A stretch of DNA of 64,000 bases, from NCBI GenBank assembly GCA_016214125.1, contig JACRPC010000011.1, positions 62,001 through 126,000 of the forward strand. The letters are read 5' to 3'. The stretch's first letter is position 1, and each line of letters starts with the position of its first letter. The stretch comes from Rhodospirillales bacterium. GTDB lineage: Bacteria; Pseudomonadota; Alphaproteobacteria; Rhodospirillales; WMHbin7. Shown here in pieces: positions 8,039-19,731 of this stretch. A program made the translations under genes and the position numbers. Below the pieces are notes generated by a model, which had not been told where the DNA came from, did not search any database, and worked only from the letters and a program-made list of their open reading frames with translations.

Positions 8039-9028
8039 ATGATCAACACGATCGATGCGGCGGCCAAGCAATCGGTGCAAATCGTTCTGGTCGATCCGGA
8101 CGTGCAGCTTCGCAACAATCTGCGCCAAGCTTTGTCGAGCGCCGGCTTCCGCACGGTCGCCGACTACAATCACATCAAAAAATTCCAAGACGATCTGGAC
8201 AAGATCTTTCCCGATCTTCTCCTGATCGACGCCCACATGCCCGAGGGCGACACTTGCCAGATGATCCGCGAAATGCGGATGAACCGTCTGGGCAAGAACC
8301 CCTTCCTGTCGGTGATCCTCACCGTCTGGCAGACCAAGATCGACGACATCGAGAAGCTGGTGAGCAGCGGCGCCGATCACATCCTGATCAAGCCGATCGC
8401 GCCCCAAGCAATCTTCGAGCGTATGGAAGCGCTGATGGAGCGCCGCCGACCCTTCGTCGCCACCAGCACCTATGTCGGCCCCGACCGGCGCAAGGGCGAC
8501 CGCGAGGGCGTCGATCCGATTCCCACCTTCCACGTCCCCAACACGCTGAAGATCAAGGCGACGAACCGCAAGGTCGATGTCGATTCGCTCCAGCGCGCCA
8601 TCGACCAGACCTTGAACAAGATGAACGACGAGATGATCCTCAGGCTGGCTTTCCAGATCGCCTTCCAGGTCAAACGGCTTCTGGTGGCGCTGGGCAAGGC
8701 CGACATCGAGGGCGAGGGCGATCAGGCGTTGCGCGACCTCAAATGGGCGCTGATGGAGTTGAACCACCGTCTGGCCGCGACCGCCTATCAGCAGATCGCC
8801 GAGCTGTGCAACAAGCTCAACACCGTGGTCGAGGGCGTCATCCGCGCCATGCCCAATCCCTCGGAGCGCGACCGCCAACTCATGGTCAAGCTGGCCGAGG
8901 CGATCAATCTGGGCCTGAAGAGCAACCAGAACCCGGCCGAGCTGGCCTCGAAGGTGGTCAAGGCCATGCAATCCTACGAATCGAAGAAGGCCCGCAAGGT
9001 TGCCGCCAAACCGGTCTCGACGCGCTGA
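8039..9028 (+). CDS. Response regulator with helical C-terminal domain
   Basis: 329 residues. Residues 13-135 form a CheY-like receiver: LVDPDVQLRNNLRQ, phosphoacceptor Asp in LLLIDAHMPEGD, Thr in ILTVWQTK and Lys in ILIKPI. A linker with TYVGPDRRKGDR, common in alphaproteobacterial receiver proteins, leads into a mostly helical C-terminal half (about 180-329) that has no DNA-binding, GGDEF or phosphatase signature. The output is unknown; protein-protein interaction through the helical part is likely. The HIT gene starts 8 nt downstream. Confidence 0.75.
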   Translation: MINTIDAAAKQSVQIVLVDPDVQLRNNLRQALSSAGFRTVADYNHIKKFQDDLDKIFPDLLLIDAHMPEGDTCQMIREMRMNRLGKNPFLSVILTVWQTKIDDIEKLVSSGADHILIKPIAPQAIFERMEALMERRRPFVATSTYVGPDRRKGDREGVDPIPTFHVPNTLKIKATNRKVDVDSLQRAIDQTLNKMNDEMILRLAFQIAFQVKRLLVALGKADIEGEGDQALRDLKWALMELNHRLAATAYQQIAELCNKLNTVVEGVIRAMPNPSERDRQLMVKLAEAINLGLKSNQNPAELASKVVKAMQSYESKKARKVAAKPVSTR

Positions 9029-9036
9029 CCGCGTCG

Positions 9037-9438
9037 ATGGCCGATCTCGATCCCCGCCTGGCAGCCGATACCGAGGCGATCGCCCAATGGCCGCTGTCGC
9101 GCGTGCTGCTGATGAAGGACGCCGCCTATCCCTGGCTGATCCTGGTGCCCGACCGTCCCAACCTCGTCGAACTGTTCGACCTTGAACCGACCGACCGCGC
9201 CCGCTTGACCGAGGAAATTGCCCGAGCCGCCCAAACCCTGAAGCGCCTCACCGGCGCCGATAAGATCAATGTCGGGGCGCTCGGCAATGTGGTGGCGCAG
9301 TTGCACATCCATGTGGTGGCGCGCTTTCGAGGCGATCCGGCCTGGCCGGGTCCGGTCTGGGGCAAGGCGCCGCCCGTCGCCTACCCGCCCGAGGTCTTGG
9401 CCAAGCGTCTGGCGCAATGGCGCGAGGCTTTGGCGTGA
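9037..9438 (+). CDS. HIT-family nucleotide hydrolase
   Basis: 133 residues, ATG at 9037. The HIT signature is present as NVVAQLHIHVVARF near residue 85-98, preceded by KINVGALGN. Domain content and length fit the Ap4A-hydrolase/GalT-related branch found in alphaproteobacteria, which cleaves dinucleoside polyphosphates or nucleoside phosphoramidates. It follows the receiver gene by 8 nt and overlaps the next gene, so it likely belongs to one transcript with both. Confidence 0.8.
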   Translation: MADLDPRLAADTEAIAQWPLSRVLLMKDAAYPWLILVPDRPNLVELFDLEPTDRARLTEEIARAAQTLKRLTGADKINVGALGNVVAQLHIHVVARFRGDPAWPGPVWGKAPPVAYPPEVLAKRLAQWREALA

Positions 9439-10019
9439 TCCGCGCCACCCTCGTTGCCCTGGCCGGCCTGCTGATCGCTGGCCTCGGCCAGGCGCAGGAT
9501 CTGCCAGGCGAGGATGCGCCGCTGGCGCTCGATCAGCGTTTCGCGCCCGCCCATTACGGCTATTCGATCCGCTATCCCGGCCTGTGGCAGCCCGTCGAGC
9601 CGGTGCGCTTCTCGGTGGTGTTCGGCGGCCCGCCCGGCACGCCCGCCTTCCACACCACGGTGGCGATCCAGAACGTTCGGGTGGCGCGCTCCGACGACAT
9701 GGCGGCCGAAGCCGCCCAGGAACTGGCGGCCTATGAAGGGCGGATGCGCGACGACACGGTCGAGCTGACCATTCAGACCCGCAAGCCCTTCATCAAGCGC
9801 CAAGGCGAGGCCAAGCCGATCATCGGCTACCAGATGGTGGCCGATTTCGTGCGCAAGGGCGAAGGCTTCCGCCAATGGGTGGTGATCCTGCCGCGCGCCA
9901 AAGCGCCGATCCTCCATGTCTGGAGCTACACGGCGCCCGTCGAGCAATTCGCCGGAACCCTGCCGACGGCGCGGGCGATGCTCGATTCCTGGACCCTCGA
10001 TGCCGATTCGAGCGACTAG
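9435..10019 (+). CDS. Exported hypothetical protein
   Basis: 194 residues from GTG at 9435, which has GAGG 7 nt upstream and overlaps the HIT stop; an ATG at 9417 in the same frame is possible. A signal peptide of about 20 residues (ATLVALAGLLIAGLGQAQ) precedes a small globular domain with the motif HYGYSIRYPGLWQP, reminiscent of PsbP/DUF1795-like folds that often begin with a 'Y-x-I-x-YP-x-W' phrase. That resemblance is only a pattern impression. The mature protein is probably periplasmic. Function unknown. Confidence 0.6.
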   Translation: MIRATLVALAGLLIAGLGQAQDLPGEDAPLALDQRFAPAHYGYSIRYPGLWQPVEPVRFSVVFGGPPGTPAFHTTVAIQNVRVARSDDMAAEAAQELAAYEGRMRDDTVELTIQTRKPFIKRQGEAKPIIGYQMVADFVRKGEGFRQWVVILPRAKAPILHVWSYTAPVEQFAGTLPTARAMLDSWTLDADSSD

Positions 10020-11083: not shown

Positions 11084-14065
11084 CTACTCGATCCGCCCCA
11101 AGATTCGGGCCAGCAGCAGGTAGAGCTTGCCCACCTCGGCGCTGGTGAAGGTGGCGGTAAGCACGTCGGCGCGGTCCGAGGTCTTGGCGCGGGCCAACAG
11201 GCTTTCGAATTCGTTGACGTAGCGGACCACGTAATCGCGGAATTGCGAATCTTGGGCGACCCGCTCGCGCACCGCGTTGATCTGGCCCTTGTCGAGCCAT
11301 TTAAGCAGCCGGCGCAGGAAGATCGCCTGATCGCCCTTCTGGAAGCGCCGCCAGGTGTCGTCATCGATTGCCGGCTGGTGCAGCCTGGCGATATCGACCG
11401 CCAAGGCCTGCAGACGCTCGACCACGAAGGCGGCGCCCTGCAGGAAGCTTTCCACCCCCACTTCGGCCCGCATCTGCTTGAGCGCCGAGGCCTGGGCGGC
11501 GGCGGCGTCCGAGGTGCGGATCAGGTCTTCGACCTGACGCTCGAACACCCGGCCCAGCTCCTCGGCCTTGGCGGCGACGCGGTCGCCGGTTGAGAACAGC
11601 TCGCCCGATTGGCTCTTCAGCTTGTCGTAGACCTCTTGGACTTCCTGCACGGTGCGCTGGGCCGCCTCGCCCAGATCGCCCGACTGGCGGCGGAAGCCCT
11701 CGCCGGCGGCGCGCACATGCGCCGACACCCGCTCGGACGAACCGACCAGTTCGCGCATGCTTTGGCGCAGCATGTCGTTGACCGCCGAGACGTTGGCCGA
11801 GGTCCGCCCGGCGCTCTCCGCGAAATCCTGGGTAATCTGGCGCAAGACGTCGGTGACGCTGCGCGCCTGCATGTGCGCGTGATCCGAGGCCTGGGCGATG
11901 TCGTCCGACTGGCGCTTGAGGGCGTCGGAATAGGCCTTGAGCAAGGCCTGGGCGTTCGACGACACCCGGCCCAGCGCATCGACCTGCCCCTCCATGGTCT
12001 GGGCGCCGTCCTTGATGTGTTGTTCGGCCTGATCGGCCACCAGGGCCAGACCCTCGCCCTGTTTGCGGATCGACTCGCCGACGCTTTGCAGGCGGGCGGC
12101 GGCGTGGTCGGACAATTCCGCCAATTGCTGGGTGCGCCGCTCCAGGGATTCGCCCACCACGTTGGTGCGGCTGGCCGCCTGCTCGGCCGCCTCGACCATA
12201 TCCGAGGCGCGCTGGCGCAGCCCCTCGCCCAGCGATTCAAGATCGAAGGTGACGCGGCTCGAGGTGGCGGTAAGTTCGCTGGTGGCGTTGCGCAGGATTT
12301 CGCCGATCGCCTTGATGCGCGCCATCGCCTGGTCCGAGGTGGCGGTGAGATGGCGGGCCTGCTGGGTGAGCGAGGATTCGGATAGCCGTGTCTGCGCCGT
12401 CACCATGTTGGCGATGTCGGTCAGTTCGTCGGACTGCTTGCGCAGGGTCATGCGGATCTGTTCGGCGGTCTGCGCCGCCTGATCGGCGCCCTTCAGCAGC
12501 TCCTCGGTGTGCGCCTTCATCGCCTGGGCGACCTCGCGGGTGCGGGCGCCCATCTGGTCGTTGGCGTTGCCAAGATCGCGGTTGTGGCCCTGGAAAGCCT
12601 CGCTGGCGGCCAGAAGGCCGGCGACCGAGCGATCGGTGCCCTCGGCCAGATCCTTGGCCCGGGCGCTCAACAGCTCGCCCACCTCGCCGATGCGTTTGGC
12701 GGCCATGTCGCTGGCCTCGACCAATTCCTTGCGGTTCTTGGCAAAGGACTCCTCGATGATCCGGAAGCGCTCCATCGCCTGGTCGGAGGCCGAAACCAAT
12801 TCGCGCGACTGTACGGTCACCGCTTCCTCGATGATCTTCACCCGCGACATCACCCGGCCGGAAACCTGCTCGATAGTGTTGACCTGCTGGGCCAGCATGC
12901 CGTCGATGCGCTCGGCCATTTCGGCCAGACGGGCGGCAACCCGGTCGAGATCGGCGCTACGATCCTTTAACCGGCCGTCGACGGTGGCCGACTGGCTGTC
13001 CAGCCGTCCGGCCATGGTCTCGAAGCGCTCGGCCGCCGATTGGGTGCCGGCCAAGAGCTTGACGGCGTGCTGGTCGATCAGGCGGGCCGCCTCGTTGGCC
13101 CGCGCCAGCGTGGTTTCCGAGGCGCTGGTCATCGATTCCTGCTGGCGGCGCATCAGATCGGCCATGGTCTCGGTCCGGCTGGCCACCTCCTGGCTGGTTT
13201 TGTCGAGCGTCTCGGCCATGGCGCGCATCAGCGTTTCGCTGTCGCGCGAGCGGGTCTGGGCGGCGGCCGACACCTGATCGACCTCGGCCACTTGGCGCCT
13301 AAGCGCGATTTCGGCCTCGCGGGCGCGGCTCGAGGCGGCCTCGGCGGCGCTGGCCAGTTCGCGCACATGCTCGCCCAACAGCTTGACCGCCGAACCGGCG
13401 CGGTCGCCCACCGATTGGGCGGCCTTCAGCATGTCCTCGGTCTGCAGCTTGAGTTGGATGCCGACCGAAGCGGTCTCGACCGCGGCGCTCTTGCTCGCCT
13501 GCGCCAGTTCCTGGGCCTGGCGCTTCAAACTGTCGGCCACCACCTGGGCGCGCCGTTCGCCCTGCGGCGTCGGCAAGGTCAGTTGTTCGAGCTGGCGGCG
13601 GAGCGCATGGGCCTCGGCGCGGTATTCGCGCCCGCGCTCGAAATGCACCACCAACAGCCAGAGCAGCGCCACCGGCAGCAGCGCCCCGCCCGCCAGGCCG
13701 CCAAACTCGTGCGGCAACAAGGCCAGGATGTTGGACCAGCCGACGGCGGCGTCAAGATAACGCCCGATGACAGCCAGCCAACCCAGCGACAGCGCCCAGG
13801 CGCCGCCCAGCAACAAACGGCGCGGCCAGGGCGAGACCGGCGGCGGCAGATCGACATAGTCGGAAGACGACTCGTTCAAACCCGCCCGGTCGATCAGTTC
13901 GGCCGCCTGGGCGCGCTCGGCATCGAGGATGGGTTCGGGGCGCGGCGATTCTCCGGCCGGCGAAGGCGCGGCGGACAGCGTTTCGCCCGCCTTCTCGGCA
14001 TCGTAGGCGATCTTGAGCGAAGCGGGGGCGTCGCCCCTTGGACGGTTACGCGATTCGTCGGCCAT
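11084..14065 (-). CDS. Membrane-anchored coiled-coil protein with 27 x 25-residue repeats
   Basis: 993 residues. Residues 1-80 are low-complexity and polar. Two hydrophobic segments (about 84-101 and 122-141) anchor it in the inner membrane. Residues 162-847 consist of 27 consecutive units of exactly 25 residues, interrupted once by an 11-residue insert (362-372). A typical unit reads L-x-x-A-S-D-x-A-x-x-R-x-x-x-V-G-E-x-L-R-x-Q-x-x-D/E. Residues 848-993 form a separate helical C-terminal domain (DTWRRFQKGDQAIFLRRLL...YLLLARILGRIE). The layout (two N-terminal membrane helices plus a long coiled coil) resembles the Caulobacter pole-organising protein TipN, but homology is unproven. The gene lies 70 bp downstream of the BatA/DUF4159 cluster on the same strand. 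Likely role: scaffold or polarity factor, by inference. Confidence 0.75.
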   Translation of the reverse strand: MADESRNRPRGDAPASLKIAYDAEKAGETLSAAPSPAGESPRPEPILDAERAQAAELIDRAGLNESSSDYVDLPPPVSPWPRRLLLGGAWALSLGWLAVIGRYLDAAVGWSNILALLPHEFGGLAGGALLPVALLWLLVVHFERGREYRAEAHALRRQLEQLTLPTPQGERRAQVVADSLKRQAQELAQASKSAAVETASVGIQLKLQTEDMLKAAQSVGDRAGSAVKLLGEHVRELASAAEAASSRAREAEIALRRQVAEVDQVSAAAQTRSRDSETLMRAMAETLDKTSQEVASRTETMADLMRRQQESMTSASETTLARANEAARLIDQHAVKLLAGTQSAAERFETMAGRLDSQSATVDGRLKDRSADLDRVAARLAEMAERIDGMLAQQVNTIEQVSGRVMSRVKIIEEAVTVQSRELVSASDQAMERFRIIEESFAKNRKELVEASDMAAKRIGEVGELLSARAKDLAEGTDRSVAGLLAASEAFQGHNRDLGNANDQMGARTREVAQAMKAHTEELLKGADQAAQTAEQIRMTLRKQSDELTDIANMVTAQTRLSESSLTQQARHLTATSDQAMARIKAIGEILRNATSELTATSSRVTFDLESLGEGLRQRASDMVEAAEQAASRTNVVGESLERRTQQLAELSDHAAARLQSVGESIRKQGEGLALVADQAEQHIKDGAQTMEGQVDALGRVSSNAQALLKAYSDALKRQSDDIAQASDHAHMQARSVTDVLRQITQDFAESAGRTSANVSAVNDMLRQSMRELVGSSERVSAHVRAAGEGFRRQSGDLGEAAQRTVQEVQEVYDKLKSQSGELFSTGDRVAAKAEELGRVFERQVEDLIRTSDAAAAQASALKQMRAEVGVESFLQGAAFVVERLQALAVDIARLHQPAIDDDTWRRFQKGDQAIFLRRLLKWLDKGQINAVRERVAQDSQFRDYVVRYVNEFESLLARAKTSDRADVLTATFTSAEVGKLYLLLARILGRIE
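11525..13582 (-). repeat. 27 tandem 75-bp-phase coding repeats (25 residues each)
   Basis: Splitting the protein from residue 162 gives eight 25-residue units, an 11-residue insert (bases 12950-12982), then nineteen more 25-residue units up to residue 847 with no other insertion or deletion. Units are divergent in sequence but share hydrophobic residues at positions 1, 4, 8, 12, 15 and 19, small residues at 4-5, Arg/Lys near 11 and 21, and Asp/Glu at 25. 25 equals 7+7+11 and the insert equals 11, as expected for mixed heptad/hendecad coiled coils. Confidence 0.9.
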
Positions 14066-14135: not shown

Positions 14136-16172
14136 TCACCGTCGGCCCTCGCGCCACCACGCCCACATCAGCAGGCCCAACGCCAAGACCAAGGCCGCCC
14201 AGCCGGGCAAAATCGGCTTTTGCGCCAAGCCGCTGGCTTGGGCCTCGCCGGGCGCGCGGAGCGCCATCCAGCCCGGACCGGCCGCCTTGTCGCCTGGCGT
14301 GCGGCGCACCAGTTCGGGAACGCCTCCTTCGGCCAGCCGGAAAAGCCCGCCGCCCGAGGCCTGGACCAGGGGCATCAGCCTGGCCTCGCTGGCCATCGGA
14401 TCGGCCAATTCCAGGGGATCGACCACGCCCGCTGCCACCACGGCGGCACGCAAGCCGTCGCCCACCCGCCAGAGGCCGGTTTCCGGGGTGGGCAGCGAGC
14501 CCACCGCCTTGCCGTCGCCCTGATCCTGAAGCGTCAGCCGATGCTCCGCGCCATCCGGGCCGGTGACGGTGATCGGCGCCGGATTGGGATCGAGGCTTTG
14601 GCGCTCGACCACCAGCTTGCCGTCCTGGGCCTTGGCGGCGAGCGCCTCCTCCTCCAGCGCCGGTTCCTTCATCAGCCAATGCGCGATGCGGCGCATCAGC
14701 TCGGCCTGAGGGCCGCCGCCGTCGAAACCCCGACCCCACAGCCACAGGCTGTCGCTGGCCAGAAGGGCCACCCGCCCCTCGCCCATCCGCTCCAGGATCA
14801 AGAGCGGCCGGCCGCCCTCGTCGCTCATCACCGGCTGACCGCCCCTTGGCTCCAGCGCCACCATCCTCAGCCAGCGGCCCCAGCGCTCGGCCTCCAGCCC
14901 GGTCAGCACCGGATGGCGCTTGCCGGTGGCGGTGATCTGCGGCCGATAGGGCTCGCCCGAGACTAGGCCGGTCGGCCGCGCCGGCATGACATCGGCCAAG
15001 GCCGTGCGATAGAGGCTGTCGGGCCCGGCGAATTCGGCCCCCGCGGCGATCAAGAGCGCGCCGCCCTTGCGGACATGGCGGACCAGATTTTCGTAATAGG
15101 CGGCCGGCATGAAATTGCGCCGGCGGTAGCGGTCGAAGACGATGAGATCGAATTCGGCCACCCGGCGCTCAAACAATTCGCGCACCGGAAAGGCGATCAG
15201 GGCCATTTCCTTCTCGGGCGTCGGATCGAATTTTTCCGGCTCGCGCAGGATGGTGAAATGGACCAGATCGACCGCCGGGTCCGATTTCAGAAGATTGCGC
15301 CAGGCCCGTCCGCCCGGATGCGGCTCGCCCGAAATGAGCAGCACCTTCAAGCGATCGCGCACGCCGTTGATGGTCGCGGCCAGACGGTTGTTGGCCGCCG
15401 TCAATTCGCCTTGCAGCAGCGGCGCTTCGATTTCCACCAAAACCGGACCGGCATGGCGCATCGGCACCCGCACCGGCACCACCTGGCCCACCGGCACGCG
15501 CAGGATTTCCGGCGCCCCGCCCGCCTGGCGCACCGCAAGATCGACCAGCGTACCCGGCACGGCGCCGGTCTCGTCGAGACGGATGCGGATCTGGGTCTGG
15601 GTTCCGACCAGGGCGAAGCTCGGCGCCTCGACGATCGACAGCTTGCGGTCCTTGTCGGTCTTGGCGCCGGTGAGCAGGACATGGAGCGGCGCCGCAAAGG
15701 GCGGACGCTCGGGCGCGTCCTGCACTTGTCCGTCGGTGATCAGGATCACCGCGCCCAGCCGGGCGGGGGCGATATCGGCCAGCGCCCGTTCGACGACGGC
15801 AAACAGATGGGTGCCCGATTGCCCGGCCGGCGCCGTCCCACCCTGGACGGTGCGGGTTTCCACCCCCTCCATCCGCTCCAACTTCGCTTTCAGCGCCGCC
15901 AGCGCCGCCGCGCTTTGCACCGGCCGCCCGCCCAGCTTCTGGCTGGCGCTGTCATCGACGGCGATGAGCGCGATGTCGGAAAGCGGCTTGCGTTCTTCGA
16001 TCACGCTGTGCGGATCGGCCAGGAGGACGAAGAGCATCGCTACCGCCAAGGCGCGCCAACCCAGACCGGGCGCGTGCTTCCAGGCGGCCAGACCGAACAG
16101 GATCAGCGCCAACCCGGCCAGGGCGGCCATCGCCGTCCAACCGATCAGCGGGGAGAAAGCCAGCGCGTTCAT
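14136..16172 (-). CDS. Large inner-membrane protein with GATase1/VWA-like region
   Basis: 678 residues; ATG at 16172 overlaps the stop of the upstream gene (ATGA), so translation is coupled. Two N-terminal membrane helices (about 10-30, 38-52) and one C-terminal helix (about 655-672) enclose a long periplasmic or peripheral part. Within it, IALIAVDDSASQ and AVILITDGQVQDAP resemble a degenerate VWA-like domain, and LKVLLISGEPHPGGRAWRNLL with ALLIAAGAEFAG resembles the class I glutamine-amidotransferase-like domain found in this family. No catalytic Cys triad is obvious. It belongs with the MoxR/DUF58/BatA cluster; such clusters are linked to envelope stress or complex assembly. Confidence 0.75.
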   Translation of the reverse strand: MNALAFSPLIGWTAMAALAGLALILFGLAAWKHAPGLGWRALAVAMLFVLLADPHSVIEERKPLSDIALIAVDDSASQKLGGRPVQSAAALAALKAKLERMEGVETRTVQGGTAPAGQSGTHLFAVVERALADIAPARLGAVILITDGQVQDAPERPPFAAPLHVLLTGAKTDKDRKLSIVEAPSFALVGTQTQIRIRLDETGAVPGTLVDLAVRQAGGAPEILRVPVGQVVPVRVPMRHAGPVLVEIEAPLLQGELTAANNRLAATINGVRDRLKVLLISGEPHPGGRAWRNLLKSDPAVDLVHFTILREPEKFDPTPEKEMALIAFPVRELFERRVAEFDLIVFDRYRRRNFMPAAYYENLVRHVRKGGALLIAAGAEFAGPDSLYRTALADVMPARPTGLVSGEPYRPQITATGKRHPVLTGLEAERWGRWLRMVALEPRGGQPVMSDEGGRPLLILERMGEGRVALLASDSLWLWGRGFDGGGPQAELMRRIAHWLMKEPALEEEALAAKAQDGKLVVERQSLDPNPAPITVTGPDGAEHRLTLQDQGDGKAVGSLPTPETGLWRVGDGLRAAVVAAGVVDPLELADPMASEARLMPLVQASGGGLFRLAEGGVPELVRRTPGDKAAGPGWMALRAPGEAQASGLAQKPILPGWAALVLALGLLMWAWWREGRR

Positions 16173-18844
16173 CGGCGCAACCGTTCCAGAATGATCGGCA
16201 GATGCACCTGATCCGATTTGTAATTGCCGGTGAGCGCCATCATCACCAGATTGATGCCGAAGCGGAACGCCATCTCGCGCTGCATCTCGCCGCCCGGCTC
16301 GGTGGCGAAGAGCGGACGGCCGCGCGCATCCTGCGCCCAGGCCGCGACCCAATCGTTGCGGCCGGCGACGATGGTGGTGACGCCGTCGGTGCCGGCGCGC
16401 TCGCCCGCCTCGATCCAGAGCGGACCGCCGGCGTGGCGGCCGGGAAAGGAATCGAGCAGGTAATAGCTGCGCCCGAGCACATGATCGCCGGGGATCGGCC
16501 GCAAGGCCGGCAGATCGAGGGCGCGGGCGAGGGCGCCCAGGCGGGCCGCGCTTTCGCCTTCGGTCAGGGCGGTGGCGTCGCCGCTGTCGAACAGGATCAG
16601 CCCGCCCTGGGCGAGATAGCGGCCCACCTTGACCCGCACCGCCGGCGATGGCGTCGGCATCGCCGTACCGGCCGGCCAGTAGACGAGCGGAAAGAAAAGA
16701 AACGGATCGCTCTCCGGCCACAATCCGATCGGCGCCGCCAATTCCACCGTGGTGCGCCTAGCCAGCATGCGCGTCAGGCCCTCAAGGCCCAGCCGGCTGG
16801 CGGTGTCCTTGTTGGCGTCGCCGGTCAGGATGTAGGCCAGCCGGGGCTCAAGCCCGGCCATGCGCGCGAAGGCCTCGTCCTCGGCGGCACCGGCCGGCGC
16901 CAGCGCCGCCAGCAGGAACAGAGCGGTCAGCAAACCGCGCAGCCGCATCGAAAGCACCAGATCGATCATCAGCAAGAGAAGTGCCGCCACCAGGAGCGCC
17001 GGCTTGAGATCGATTTCCGCCGCCCGATCGGCTTCGGCCAAGGGCCGGCGTTGGATGGAATCGGGCAGGGCCTCGATCGCTTTCGGCGTGCCCAAGAGCG
17101 GCGCCAGATTGCGCGCCCGCCGGCTGTCCGCCGGACCGTAATAGCCCGGCGGATGTTTGGGTCCAGGCGGCAGGGCCAGAAGCTCCGGCGCCTTCAAGGG
17201 CACGGCGGCGGTGCCGGGCGGCACCAGCCGACCGAAGCCATCGAGCACCGTTTGCGGAACCAGCGCCGCCGGCTGGATTTCGGCCAAGCCGGTCCCCAAG
17301 GCCATCACGCGGCGCAACAGATCGACGAACAGGCCCGAGATCGGCAGATTCGACCAGCCGGTGTTGGCGCCCACATGCACGAGCACCAGCCAGCCCTTGC
17401 CCAGGCGCTTGGCGGTCACCAGGGGCGTGCCGTCGGCCAGACGCGCCCAGCTTTGCCGGGCGAGATCGGGGCCGGGCTCGGCCAGCACCTGGGTGGTGAC
17501 GCGGACGTCGTCGGGCACCGCCAGGCCGGCGAACGGGCTTTCCGGCGCGAAGGGGGCAATCCGCGCCGGTTCGGTCCAGGAGAGGGTGCCGCCAAACGAA
17601 CGTCCGCCGCCCCTCAGGCGCACCGGCACCAGGGGCGGTTCGCCGGTCTGCTCGGCCAGCCTTGGGCCGGCGAAGCGGACCAGCACGCCGCCTTCGGCGA
17701 TCCAACGCTCGACCGCGCCCAGGGCGGTTTCCGGCAAGGGCTGGGAATCGCCAAGAACCATAAGTGTCAGAGGCCGCTCAAGAAGCGCCATGGCCTCGCC
17801 GGCCCGGATTTCCGCGAAGGGCGCCAGGGCGCGCTCGACGTAATAGAGTTCGCCGGTGAGCGGCTGCAACGCCTCCGAACGGTTGGCAACCGCCAGCCCG
17901 ACCGGACGGCGCCGGCCACCCTCGTCGAGCAGCACTGTCGCGCCGGCGCCGGATTCGTCCTCAAGCGCCAAGGTCTGCACCCGGTTGAGGCTTTCCAAGG
18001 GCAGATCGAACCGCGTTTCGACCTTGGTGGCCGAGGGCTCGAAGCGGACTTCGGTCCGGCCCAGCACCCGCCCCTGCCCGTCCAAGGCTTTGACCGGCAC
18101 CGTCTCGGCAAAGCCGCCCTGGGCACGCCGCACGTCCAAGGTAAGATCGCCGCTTTGGGCGGGGGCCAAGCGCAACAGGCGGGCCAAAGCGGGCGGATCG
18201 GGCCGATGGAGGGTGGTGGGACCCAGCGCGGCAAGGGCCCGCGCCAAATCGCCCGACCCGCCATCCTCAAGGCCGTCGGCCAGCCAGACGATTTCCGAGA
18301 ACCGTTCCACCCGAATGGCGGCCAGCGCGCCAACCGCCGCTCGACGATCGCTGGGCCAGGGTTTTGGCGTCAACGCCGCCAAGGCCGCGCCCGCCGCCGA
18401 CGCCGTCAGCAGTCGGGCGGTCGGCGGATTTCCATCCTCGGCTGGCGCGGTGGCGAGCAGAAGGACCGGCCGATTGCTCCGCTCCGCCCGCTTGATCCGG
18501 ATGTCCGCCTGGCTCCGGACCGCATCCCAGGAGCGCGCCGCCGCCCAGCCATCGTCGATCGCCAGCAGGATCGGGCCGTCACCACCGCCCTCGGCGGGCG
18601 GATTAAGCACCGGATGGGCGAGCGCGACGATCGCCAGGGCGGCGATGACCAGACGCAGCAGCAACAACCACCAGGGCGTGCGGTGGCTGGTCCGTTTCGT
18701 GCCGACCAGATCGGCCAACAGGGCCAGGGGCGGAAAGGCCTGGCGGCGGGGTGGCGGCGGCACGACGCGCAACAGCCACCACAGGACCGGCAGGACCAGC
18801 AGGCCCCAAAGCAGGCTTGGCGCCAGGAAGCCCAGCCCGCTCAT
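16169..18844 (-). CDS. BatA-domain / DUF4159 membrane protein
   Basis: 891 residues. The N-terminus (MSGLGFLAPSLLWGLLVLPVLWWLL, then RTPWWLLLLRLVIAALAIVALAHPVL) is the BatA/aerotolerance-regulator N-terminal module with two membrane helices. A middle periplasmic region contains GATase1-like stretches (GVLVRFAGPRLAE). Further helices occur near residues 615-650. The C-terminal part from about 670 (MAGLEPRLAYILTGDANKD, GGLILFDSGD, HVLGRSYYLLDSFPGR) matches DUF4159. It starts 4 bp inside the end of the DUF58 gene. Likely works with the MoxR chaperone and the DUF58 protein in assembling or maturing an unknown target. Confidence 0.8.
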   Translation of the reverse strand: MSGLGFLAPSLLWGLLVLPVLWWLLRVVPPPPRRQAFPPLALLADLVGTKRTSHRTPWWLLLLRLVIAALAIVALAHPVLNPPAEGGGDGPILLAIDDGWAAARSWDAVRSQADIRIKRAERSNRPVLLLATAPAEDGNPPTARLLTASAAGAALAALTPKPWPSDRRAAVGALAAIRVERFSEIVWLADGLEDGGSGDLARALAALGPTTLHRPDPPALARLLRLAPAQSGDLTLDVRRAQGGFAETVPVKALDGQGRVLGRTEVRFEPSATKVETRFDLPLESLNRVQTLALEDESGAGATVLLDEGGRRRPVGLAVANRSEALQPLTGELYYVERALAPFAEIRAGEAMALLERPLTLMVLGDSQPLPETALGAVERWIAEGGVLVRFAGPRLAEQTGEPPLVPVRLRGGGRSFGGTLSWTEPARIAPFAPESPFAGLAVPDDVRVTTQVLAEPGPDLARQSWARLADGTPLVTAKRLGKGWLVLVHVGANTGWSNLPISGLFVDLLRRVMALGTGLAEIQPAALVPQTVLDGFGRLVPPGTAAVPLKAPELLALPPGPKHPPGYYGPADSRRARNLAPLLGTPKAIEALPDSIQRRPLAEADRAAEIDLKPALLVAALLLLMIDLVLSMRLRGLLTALFLLAALAPAGAAEDEAFARMAGLEPRLAYILTGDANKDTASRLGLEGLTRMLARRTTVELAAPIGLWPESDPFLFFPLVYWPAGTAMPTPSPAVRVKVGRYLAQGGLILFDSGDATALTEGESAARLGALARALDLPALRPIPGDHVLGRSYYLLDSFPGRHAGGPLWIEAGERAGTDGVTTIVAGRNDWVAAWAQDARGRPLFATEPGGEMQREMAFRFGINLVMMALTGNYKSDQVHLPIILERLRR

Positions 18845-19731
18845 CGCCGCCGGTCCTCGGCCAGGGCCTGATGCAAGGCCAAGAGGGCGGTGGTGGGCGG
18901 CGTGTCGGTGGCGTGCCGGATCAGACCCCAGCCCAAACGACGGCAGAAATCGGCCAGCGCCACCTCATGGGCGGCGAGACGGCGGCGATAGGCCGGGGCC
19001 AATTCCTCGGCCTGATCGATGGGGATCGGCGCCTCGCCCTCCAAGCCTTCGAAGCGCAGGCGGCCCTGGAAGGGAAAGCGGGCCTCGGCCGGGTCCTCGA
19101 TACGCAGCAGAAGGCCGCGCACGCCCTTGCCGGCCAGTTCGGCCAAACGCGCCTCCAGGCGGTCGAAGGGCTCCAGGAAGTCGCCAAACAGCACGATCTG
19201 GGCGTGGCGCGGCAGTTCCGCCTCCGGCGGCAGGCCCCCGCCCTTGGGGGCGCTCAATAAGGTGACGGCGAGGCGCTCCAGCACCGCCCGCCCGCTGGTC
19301 GGCGGCGTGCGGTCGCCCAACAGCGCCACCCGCTCGCCGGCGCGCAGCAGAAGCGCCGCCAGAGCCAGAAGCAGCAGATCGGCGCGTTCGCCCTTGCGGG
19401 GCAGGGCGATCTCGGAGCACCAATCCATCGAGGCCGAAGGGTCGCGCCACAGCCAGGCCGATTGCGCCGCCGCCCATTCGGTCTCGCGCACGAACAGGTG
19501 CATCGAACGCGCCGATTGCCGCCAATCGATCTGCTCAGCGGCGTCGCCAGGCTGGTGGCGGCGGAACTGCCAGAAGCTGTCGCCCGGCCCCACCCGGCGC
19601 CGACCATGCACCCCTTGCGCCACGGTCGCCGCCACCCGCTTCGCCGCCAACAGCAAGGGCGGCAGGCGGGCGGCCAGGCTCTCGCCTTCGGCCCTTACGG
19701 CTTCGACGGCGTTCAGGCCAGGGGGGCGCAC
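18841..19731 (-). CDS. DUF58 domain protein
   Basis: 296 residues. The DUF58 core is clear: GRRRVGPGDSFWQFRRHQPGDAA, IDWRQSARS, and LWRDPSASMDW, which stands where a VWA metal site (DxSxS) would be: D-P-S-A-S. These proteins are usual partners of MoxR AAA ATPases and bridge them to VWA proteins. The gene overlaps the end of moxR by 19 bp and the start of the BatA/DUF4159 gene by 4 bp, so the four genes form a tight operon. Confidence 0.87.
   Translation of the reverse strand: MRPPGLNAVEAVRAEGESLAARLPPLLLAAKRVAATVAQGVHGRRRVGPGDSFWQFRRHQPGDAAEQIDWRQSARSMHLFVRETEWAAAQSAWLWRDPSASMDWCSEIALPRKGERADLLLLALAALLLRAGERVALLGDRTPPTSGRAVLERLAVTLLSAPKGGGLPPEAELPRHAQIVLFGDFLEPFDRLEARLAELAGKGVRGLLLRIEDPAEARFPFQGRLRFEGLEGEAPIPIDQAEELAPAYRRRLAAHEVALADFCRRLGWGLIRHATDTPPTTALLALHQALAEDRRR

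Follow-up and report, generated by a model that had tools for sequence, protein, structure and literature searches.

Gene layout and protein architecture

A complete open reading frame for a protein of 993 residues is found on the minus strand of the window (the whole 64,000-nucleotide stretch of DNA analysed here). Its predicted product has a two-helix membrane anchor, a long helical rod built from 25-residue units, and a conserved C-terminal domain (Table 1). Membrane helix 1 is weaker than helix 2, and its hydropathy stays under the cut-off of 1.5 that was used. Arginines flank the helix pair on both sides, which suggests that both ends of the protein are probably cytoplasmic. The rod contains no tryptophan, no cysteine and two prolines. 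The 11-residue step within the rod is common to all relatives of the window's family, and is also present in genomes G025 and G021. For the N-terminal and C-terminal end domains, no naming model was found in Pfam or NCBIfam, and only weak helical matches came up when the C-terminal profile was compared with solved structures.

Table 1. Features of the rod gene and its product, in window coordinates.
Feature	Position	Strand	Basis
Complete gene, membrane-anchored coiled-coil protein, RgsE/GPR-related, 993 aa	11084..14065	-	ORF; homologues in 35/40 relatives
N-terminal 80 residues, Pro/Ala-rich, variable, probably disordered	13826..14065	-	many gaps among close relatives
Predicted membrane helix 1, residues 84-103	13757..13816	-	position conserved in alignment A2
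Short loop with conserved LLPHE motif, residues 104-121, predicted periplasmic	13703..13756	-	sidedness inferred from Arg-rich flanks
Predicted membrane helix 2, residues 122-142	13640..13702	-	hydropathy peak 2.1; conserved in A2
Rod part 1, 8 x 25-residue units, residues 162-361; in phase from about residue 154	12983..13582	-	self-comparison, phase decoding
11-residue step, one hendecad, residues 362-372	12950..12982	-	phase decoding
Rod part 2, 19 x 25-residue units, residues 373-847; in phase to about residue 862	11525..12949	-	self-comparison, phase decoding
Conserved domain at the C terminus, from about residue 860 to 993, with homology to the RgsE C terminus	11087..11488	-	profile, tblastn, pairwise identity

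Upstream on the same strand (window 14136-19731, minus) lie genes for a DUF58 protein, a BatA/DUF4159 protein, and a third protein with weak amidotransferase-like matches (DUF7408/GATase1-like). The adjacency of this trio to the rod gene is not conserved in the relatives. Two plus-strand genes encode a response-regulator protein with a helical tail (8039-9028) and a 200-residue protein without a Pfam match (9417-10019); in each of the family's four other genomes, both lie close to the rod gene.

The 25-residue period

The preliminary description had reported 27 exact 25-residue repeats over residues 162-847, and this range maps exactly onto window 11525-13582. Self-comparison of the rod with BLOSUM62 gave its highest peak at lag 25 (z 19.3), followed by lags 50, 75 and 100 (z 16.5, 14.1 and 13.0), and the hydropathy period is 3.574, equal to 25/7. 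Shuffle controls were run because the 3-4 spacing of any coiled coil could by itself give a weak signal at 25. With composition preserved and core and surface held, the lag-25 signal had z values of 14.5 and 11.6; the latter came from the stringent shuffle, in which residues were exchanged solely among positions of the same kind (core, flank or surface). The surface positions alone gave z 9.5. No lag-25 signal was found in the coiled-coil arms of the SMC proteins from the same genome and one relative (z <= 1.3).

Cyclic phase decoding with 25 states, in which shifts were permitted anywhere, produced two runs (residues 154-359 and 360-862) with one shift of 11 between them, near residue 360. 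The manual phasing of 8 x 25, 11 and 19 x 25 residues is thus reproduced by free decoding. Phase decoding and the relatives also bear out the division of 25 into 7+7+11, the insert as a hendecad, and the register held along the whole rod. The count of 27 is slightly short, as residues 154-862 are in phase, or about 28 units; and the repeats are exact in length, but not in sequence (about 22% identity between neighbouring units). No 75-base tandem repeat was found at the DNA level. To judge from this divergence and the missing DNA repeat, the 25-residue units are old.

The consensus of the unit, obtained by phase decoding, is LTYTSDKAVTRIKEVGEALHQQTHD. Phases 0, 7, 11, 14 and 18 are each 79-100% apolar and form a narrow stripe; acidic residues are concentrated at phases 5, 16 and 24, and basic residues at 10 and 19. 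The net charge has power at 25/2, 25/3 and 25/9. Individual units are conserved between relatives, with 32% identity in register versus 20% when shifted by one unit, which favours putative position-specific sites over a uniform polymer.

Relationship to RgsE and GPR

Homologue matches were found in 35 of 40 relatives. In the class sample, the C-terminal domain is present in 114 of 289 genomes and the N-terminal domain in 91 of 289; the best 80 named contigs carrying the C-terminal domain are rhizobial. A tblastn search with the C-terminal domain of the window protein identified a 2089-residue protein of S. meliloti (E 5e-15). The two C-terminal domains share 34% identity over 157 residues, and profiles from the window's relatives match the S. 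meliloti protein at both ends (E 3e-37 for the C-terminal profile and 1e-8 for the N-terminal profile, A2). The identification of this protein as RgsE rests on its published length and its homology to GPR, as the RgsE paper describes a protein of 2089 residues homologous to Agrobacterium GPR. The matched protein (L223, CP090106.1, 2044121-2050390) is annotated as 'kinesin' and lies beside cytochrome bc1 genes; the 3.7-Mb record is labelled plasmid pSymB, yet carries chromosomal genes, among them folP, folK and cytochrome bc1.

On this homology, the window protein is a distant homologue of Sinorhizobium RgsE and Agrobacterium GPR. It shares with them the C-terminal domain, a two-helix anchor of common origin, and a long helical rod built from repeats, as in an RgsE/GPR family taken in the wide sense. 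The family link itself is not new, since distant homologues in Rhodospirillales were already mentioned by the RgsE authors, who noted that the role of such homologues may differ. The analysis of the rod and its mode of evolution are new as far as the searched literature goes.

RgsE and GPR have been described as proteins with two N-terminal membrane helices and a mostly cytoplasmic body, which localise to the growth pole and require their C terminus for function. They act in bacteria without MreB, and GPR was described as apolipoprotein-like. Like RgsE (SMc00190, 2089 aa) and GPR (A. tumefaciens Atu1348, 2115 aa), the window protein combines two N-terminal membrane helices with a very long loop-free helical rod and the homologous C-terminal domain. 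However, its rod unit is 25 residues (7+7+11, period 3.57), whereas RgsE and GPR have units of 11/22/44 (period 3.66); its rod is 709 residues long, against roughly 1500 or more. The rhizobial homologues match the apolipoprotein A1/A4/E family (PF01442) through their 11/22 periodicity, RgsE with 258 bits, whereas the window protein did not match PF01442 in the profile search. Its apolar face forms a narrow stripe, unlike the broad one of lipid-binding helices.

A true MreB is encoded in the window's genome (E 1e-152), whereas the rhizobial-type genomes have weak matches only. The rhizobial neighbourhood, with an Hpt gene upstream and MlaD-like, ABC-transporter and lipoprotein genes downstream, was not found around the window gene. 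The rod without PF01442, the presence of MreB, and the different neighbours set the window protein apart from a rhizobial GPR/RgsE in the strict sense. In G025 (locus L035), the closest relative outside the family, weak MreB matches and no true MreB were found in an assembly rated complete.

A rod-less paralogue of about 354 residues is encoded in the same genome on contig C18 (L235/L060; G000:C18:146338-147090, minus strand). It has the two end domains with hardly any rod between them (profile E 4e-23 and 9e-11, in single comparisons), and similar short proteins also occur in several other families. Since the paralogue keeps both ends without the rod, it supports the view that the end domains might be functional modules and the rod a spacer. 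In four genomes of one family in the class sample (G057, G169, G250 and G318), open reading frames of 330-377 residues have a weak match to the C-terminal domain only.

Comparison with other coiled-coil proteins

SMC arms resemble the window rod in their conserved length and preferred steps, and the functional regimes of SMC arm length are periodic (PMC5344682). In contrast, SMC proteins have an ATPase head and a hinge, both missing from the window protein, and their arms have no 25-residue repeat. An SMC identity was rejected, as the matches were to coiled coil only (21 bits against a cut-off of 729). Crescentin and intermediate-filament-like proteins have a long cytoplasmic coiled-coil rod, as inferred for the window protein, but crescentin lacks the membrane anchor and the C-terminal domain. 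A crescentin identity was also rejected, with a CreS_N match below the cut-off (E 0.063); the crescentin search of the class sample gave no clear Caulobacter relative.

Rod length in the window's order

Rod length was measured from the Pro after helix 2 to the Phe in the C-terminal domain. The anchor lengths of L044 (frame break in the MAG) and L036 (truncated contig) are invalid. The N-terminal part of L044 (G031:C38) is in a different frame from the rest, so that either the MAG contains an error or the gene is broken.

All five genomes of the window's family have a rod of 709 residues, and the next relative has one of 705; in an alignment of all six, the sole rod gap is one of four residues. 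In ten other genera of the order, belonging to nine families, the rod is exactly 1119 residues long, and these rods align without gaps at 22-48% identity (median 31%). Comparison of 80-residue segments gave the best fit at shift 0 in 962 of 1170 cases and at +/-25 in 190; segments fit either in place or one unit away, so there are no hidden compensating indels.

In the remaining members of the order, the rod departs from 1119 by -1, +7, +11, +22, +55, +121, +196, +588 and +784 residues, and the +22 rod is found in two genomes of one family. The three largest differences correspond exactly to 1, 3 and 4 copies of a 196-residue module, equal to 28 heptads or 7 x 25 + 21. Direct comparison at lag 196 confirmed the tandem module, with up to 92% identity. 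L047, L049, L040 and L044 carry between one and four tandem duplications of it, with the best-conserved rod junction at their centre.

Helical phase is better preserved by small steps than by random ones (p 0.013 when only lengths are used, uncorrected for phylogeny); when decoded steps, which may favour register, are added, p is 0.0005, likewise uncorrected for phylogeny. It had been expected that orthologue indels would come in steps of 25 or 11. The step of 11 was seen, along with 4, 7 and 22, the 196 module, and one of -1. What the rod steps share is that the register is kept rather than a size of 25 or 11 only. The strong selection on register that had been proposed agrees with the strong conservation of length and register in the relatives, both in the 709-residue rods and in the gap-free 1119-residue rods; the ruler, polymer or periodic binding sites suggested along with it are hypothetical roles.

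Most pairs of SMC proteins from the same genomes (excluding L225, for which the wrong ORF was extracted) differ by 2-5 gaps at 53-67% identity, and a few pairs are gap-free. The rods, gap-free at 22-48% identity, so keep their length at least as strictly as SMC proteins, and at much lower identity.

Rods in other clades

Of 40 further class members, 35 have their strongest lag at 25 or 50 and two at 29/58. The strongest lag of 75 rhizobial loci falls at 22, 11, 44, 29 or 33, and never at 25. Across the class, rod length between the anchors ranges from about 340 to 1950 residues. Among 18 Bosea rods, 16 are congruent modulo 11 and two are off by 7, and the length is otherwise free. The pairwise Bosea gaps are 22, 11, 44, 33, 88, 66, 132 and more, with gaps of 18 or 4 being rare. 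Microvirga rods are also free in length, with eight of 13 congruent modulo 11 and four off by 7. Steps of 11 at free length suggest that register rather than length is kept in these two genera. The steps are less clean in a mixed Pseudolabrys/Xanthobacteraceae set and in Ancylobacter, where the sets are smaller and more diverse. Brucella rods were left out of the length comparison, as their anchors could not be placed.

In the Bosea rods, no more than two positions per 11 residues are strongly apolar, as in a hendecad coiled coil. This pattern weakens the apolipoprotein reading of the rhizobial branch, even though the PF01442 match of RgsE is strong. In rhizobial-type loci L121, L122, L124, L126-L128, L130, L131, L146, L148, L161, L205 and L209, a cluster of MlaD-like, ABC-transporter and lipoprotein genes (names inferred from sequence) lies directly downstream of the rod gene in convergent orientation. 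An Hpt-domain gene lies upstream in many of them.

Proposed role and alternative explanations

The anchor, the 709-residue rod, the C-terminal domain, the homology to RgsE, and the conservation of register and length can be read from the sequences themselves. The explanation that we prefer, with a probability of about 0.62, is that the window protein may be a membrane-anchored envelope or pole scaffold of the RgsE/GPR family in the wide sense, in which the rod serves as a register-locked spacer with position-specific sites. The localisation, oligomeric state and function given below are predictions. The anchor would span the inner membrane and the rod would lie in the cytoplasm. Rods might associate in register, as pairs or bundles, to give a stiff rod; a single uninterrupted helix at 0.1485 nm per residue would be about 105 nm long. 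The rod would fix the position of the C-terminal domain relative to the anchor, and partners may bind at distinct units at a fixed spacing from it. The site is probably the cell pole or the growth or division site, as for RgsE and GPR; since the genome encodes a true MreB, the role need not be polar growth. Selection would preserve the coiled-coil register and, in the window's order, also the total length, so that the rod would change by whole register-preserving blocks.

As an organiser of polar growth, GPR/RgsE is essential or nearly so, and its very large helical rod has been interpreted as apolipoprotein-like. These analyses suggest a simpler view: a single family of membrane-anchored coiled-coil rods with conserved ends, a repeat unit of 25 in most of the class and 11/22 in Rhizobiales, and a length that evolves by register-keeping blocks. 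Such a view offers an alternative to the lipid-binding model of GPR/RgsE. The role of rod length becomes testable by adding or removing blocks, an approach already taken with SMC arms, which provide a precedent for a selected arm length that changes stepwise (PMC5344682).

The main rival to the spacer scaffold is selection on register only, which seems possible at somewhat below even odds. The protein would be an ordinary long coiled coil in which core-breaking indels are purged, total length has no function, and register-keeping indels are rare because the units have diverged at the DNA level. The missing DNA-level repeats, the class-wide range of rod length, and the Bosea and Microvirga rods, which vary by hundreds of residues almost only in multiples of 11, all fit this explanation. 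However, register alone would let lengths drift, and the frozen lengths of 1119 and 709 fit it less well; ten genera of the order are identical in length, while +7, +11, +22 and +196 are viable elsewhere. Part of the fixed length could still come from a low tolerance of long coiled coils for indels of any kind. At the other extreme, it may tentatively be proposed, also with less than even chances, that the rod is a quantised length standard. Selection would then act on length itself, at 709 residues (about 105 nm) or 1119 residues (about 166 nm), any change would have to come in quanta that preserve the register (7, 11, 25-based, or the 196 module), the end domains would do the work, and the apolipoprotein label of GPR would be a by-product of hendecad periodicity.

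A membrane-tethered filament former, assembling laterally with staggers in multiples of 25 in the manner of intermediate filaments, appears improbable. The regular acidic and basic bands with their charge periodicities, and a long rod almost devoid of Pro and lacking Trp and Cys, would suit such assembly. Nevertheless, the units are conserved one by one and are not equivalent, the crescentin match is insignificant (E 0.06), and the charge-stagger scores are modest, with congruence modulo 25 being automatic in a 25-periodic chain. Still less credible is a lipid-binding amphipathic protein of the apolipoprotein type that lies flat against the membrane, the arrangement proposed for GPR. The PF01442 score of RgsE, the description of GPR, and the gene cluster often found beside rhizobial-type rod genes agree with it, but the window protein has no PF01442 match, and the strongly apolar positions (5 of 25 in the window protein and 2 of 11 in Bosea) form a coiled-coil pattern. 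TipN of Caulobacter crescentus, of which the preliminary description was reminded by the two N-terminal helices, is a membrane-anchored coiled-coil protein of 882 residues, similar in size to the window protein. With two membrane helices and a coiled-coil body, it shares a general architecture, known from its description, that is unspecific and the only tie to the window protein. That the window protein is an orthologue of this new-pole landmark is rather unlikely. The literature notes a similarity between GPR and TipN and calls them analogous, and PopZ is present in the window's genome.
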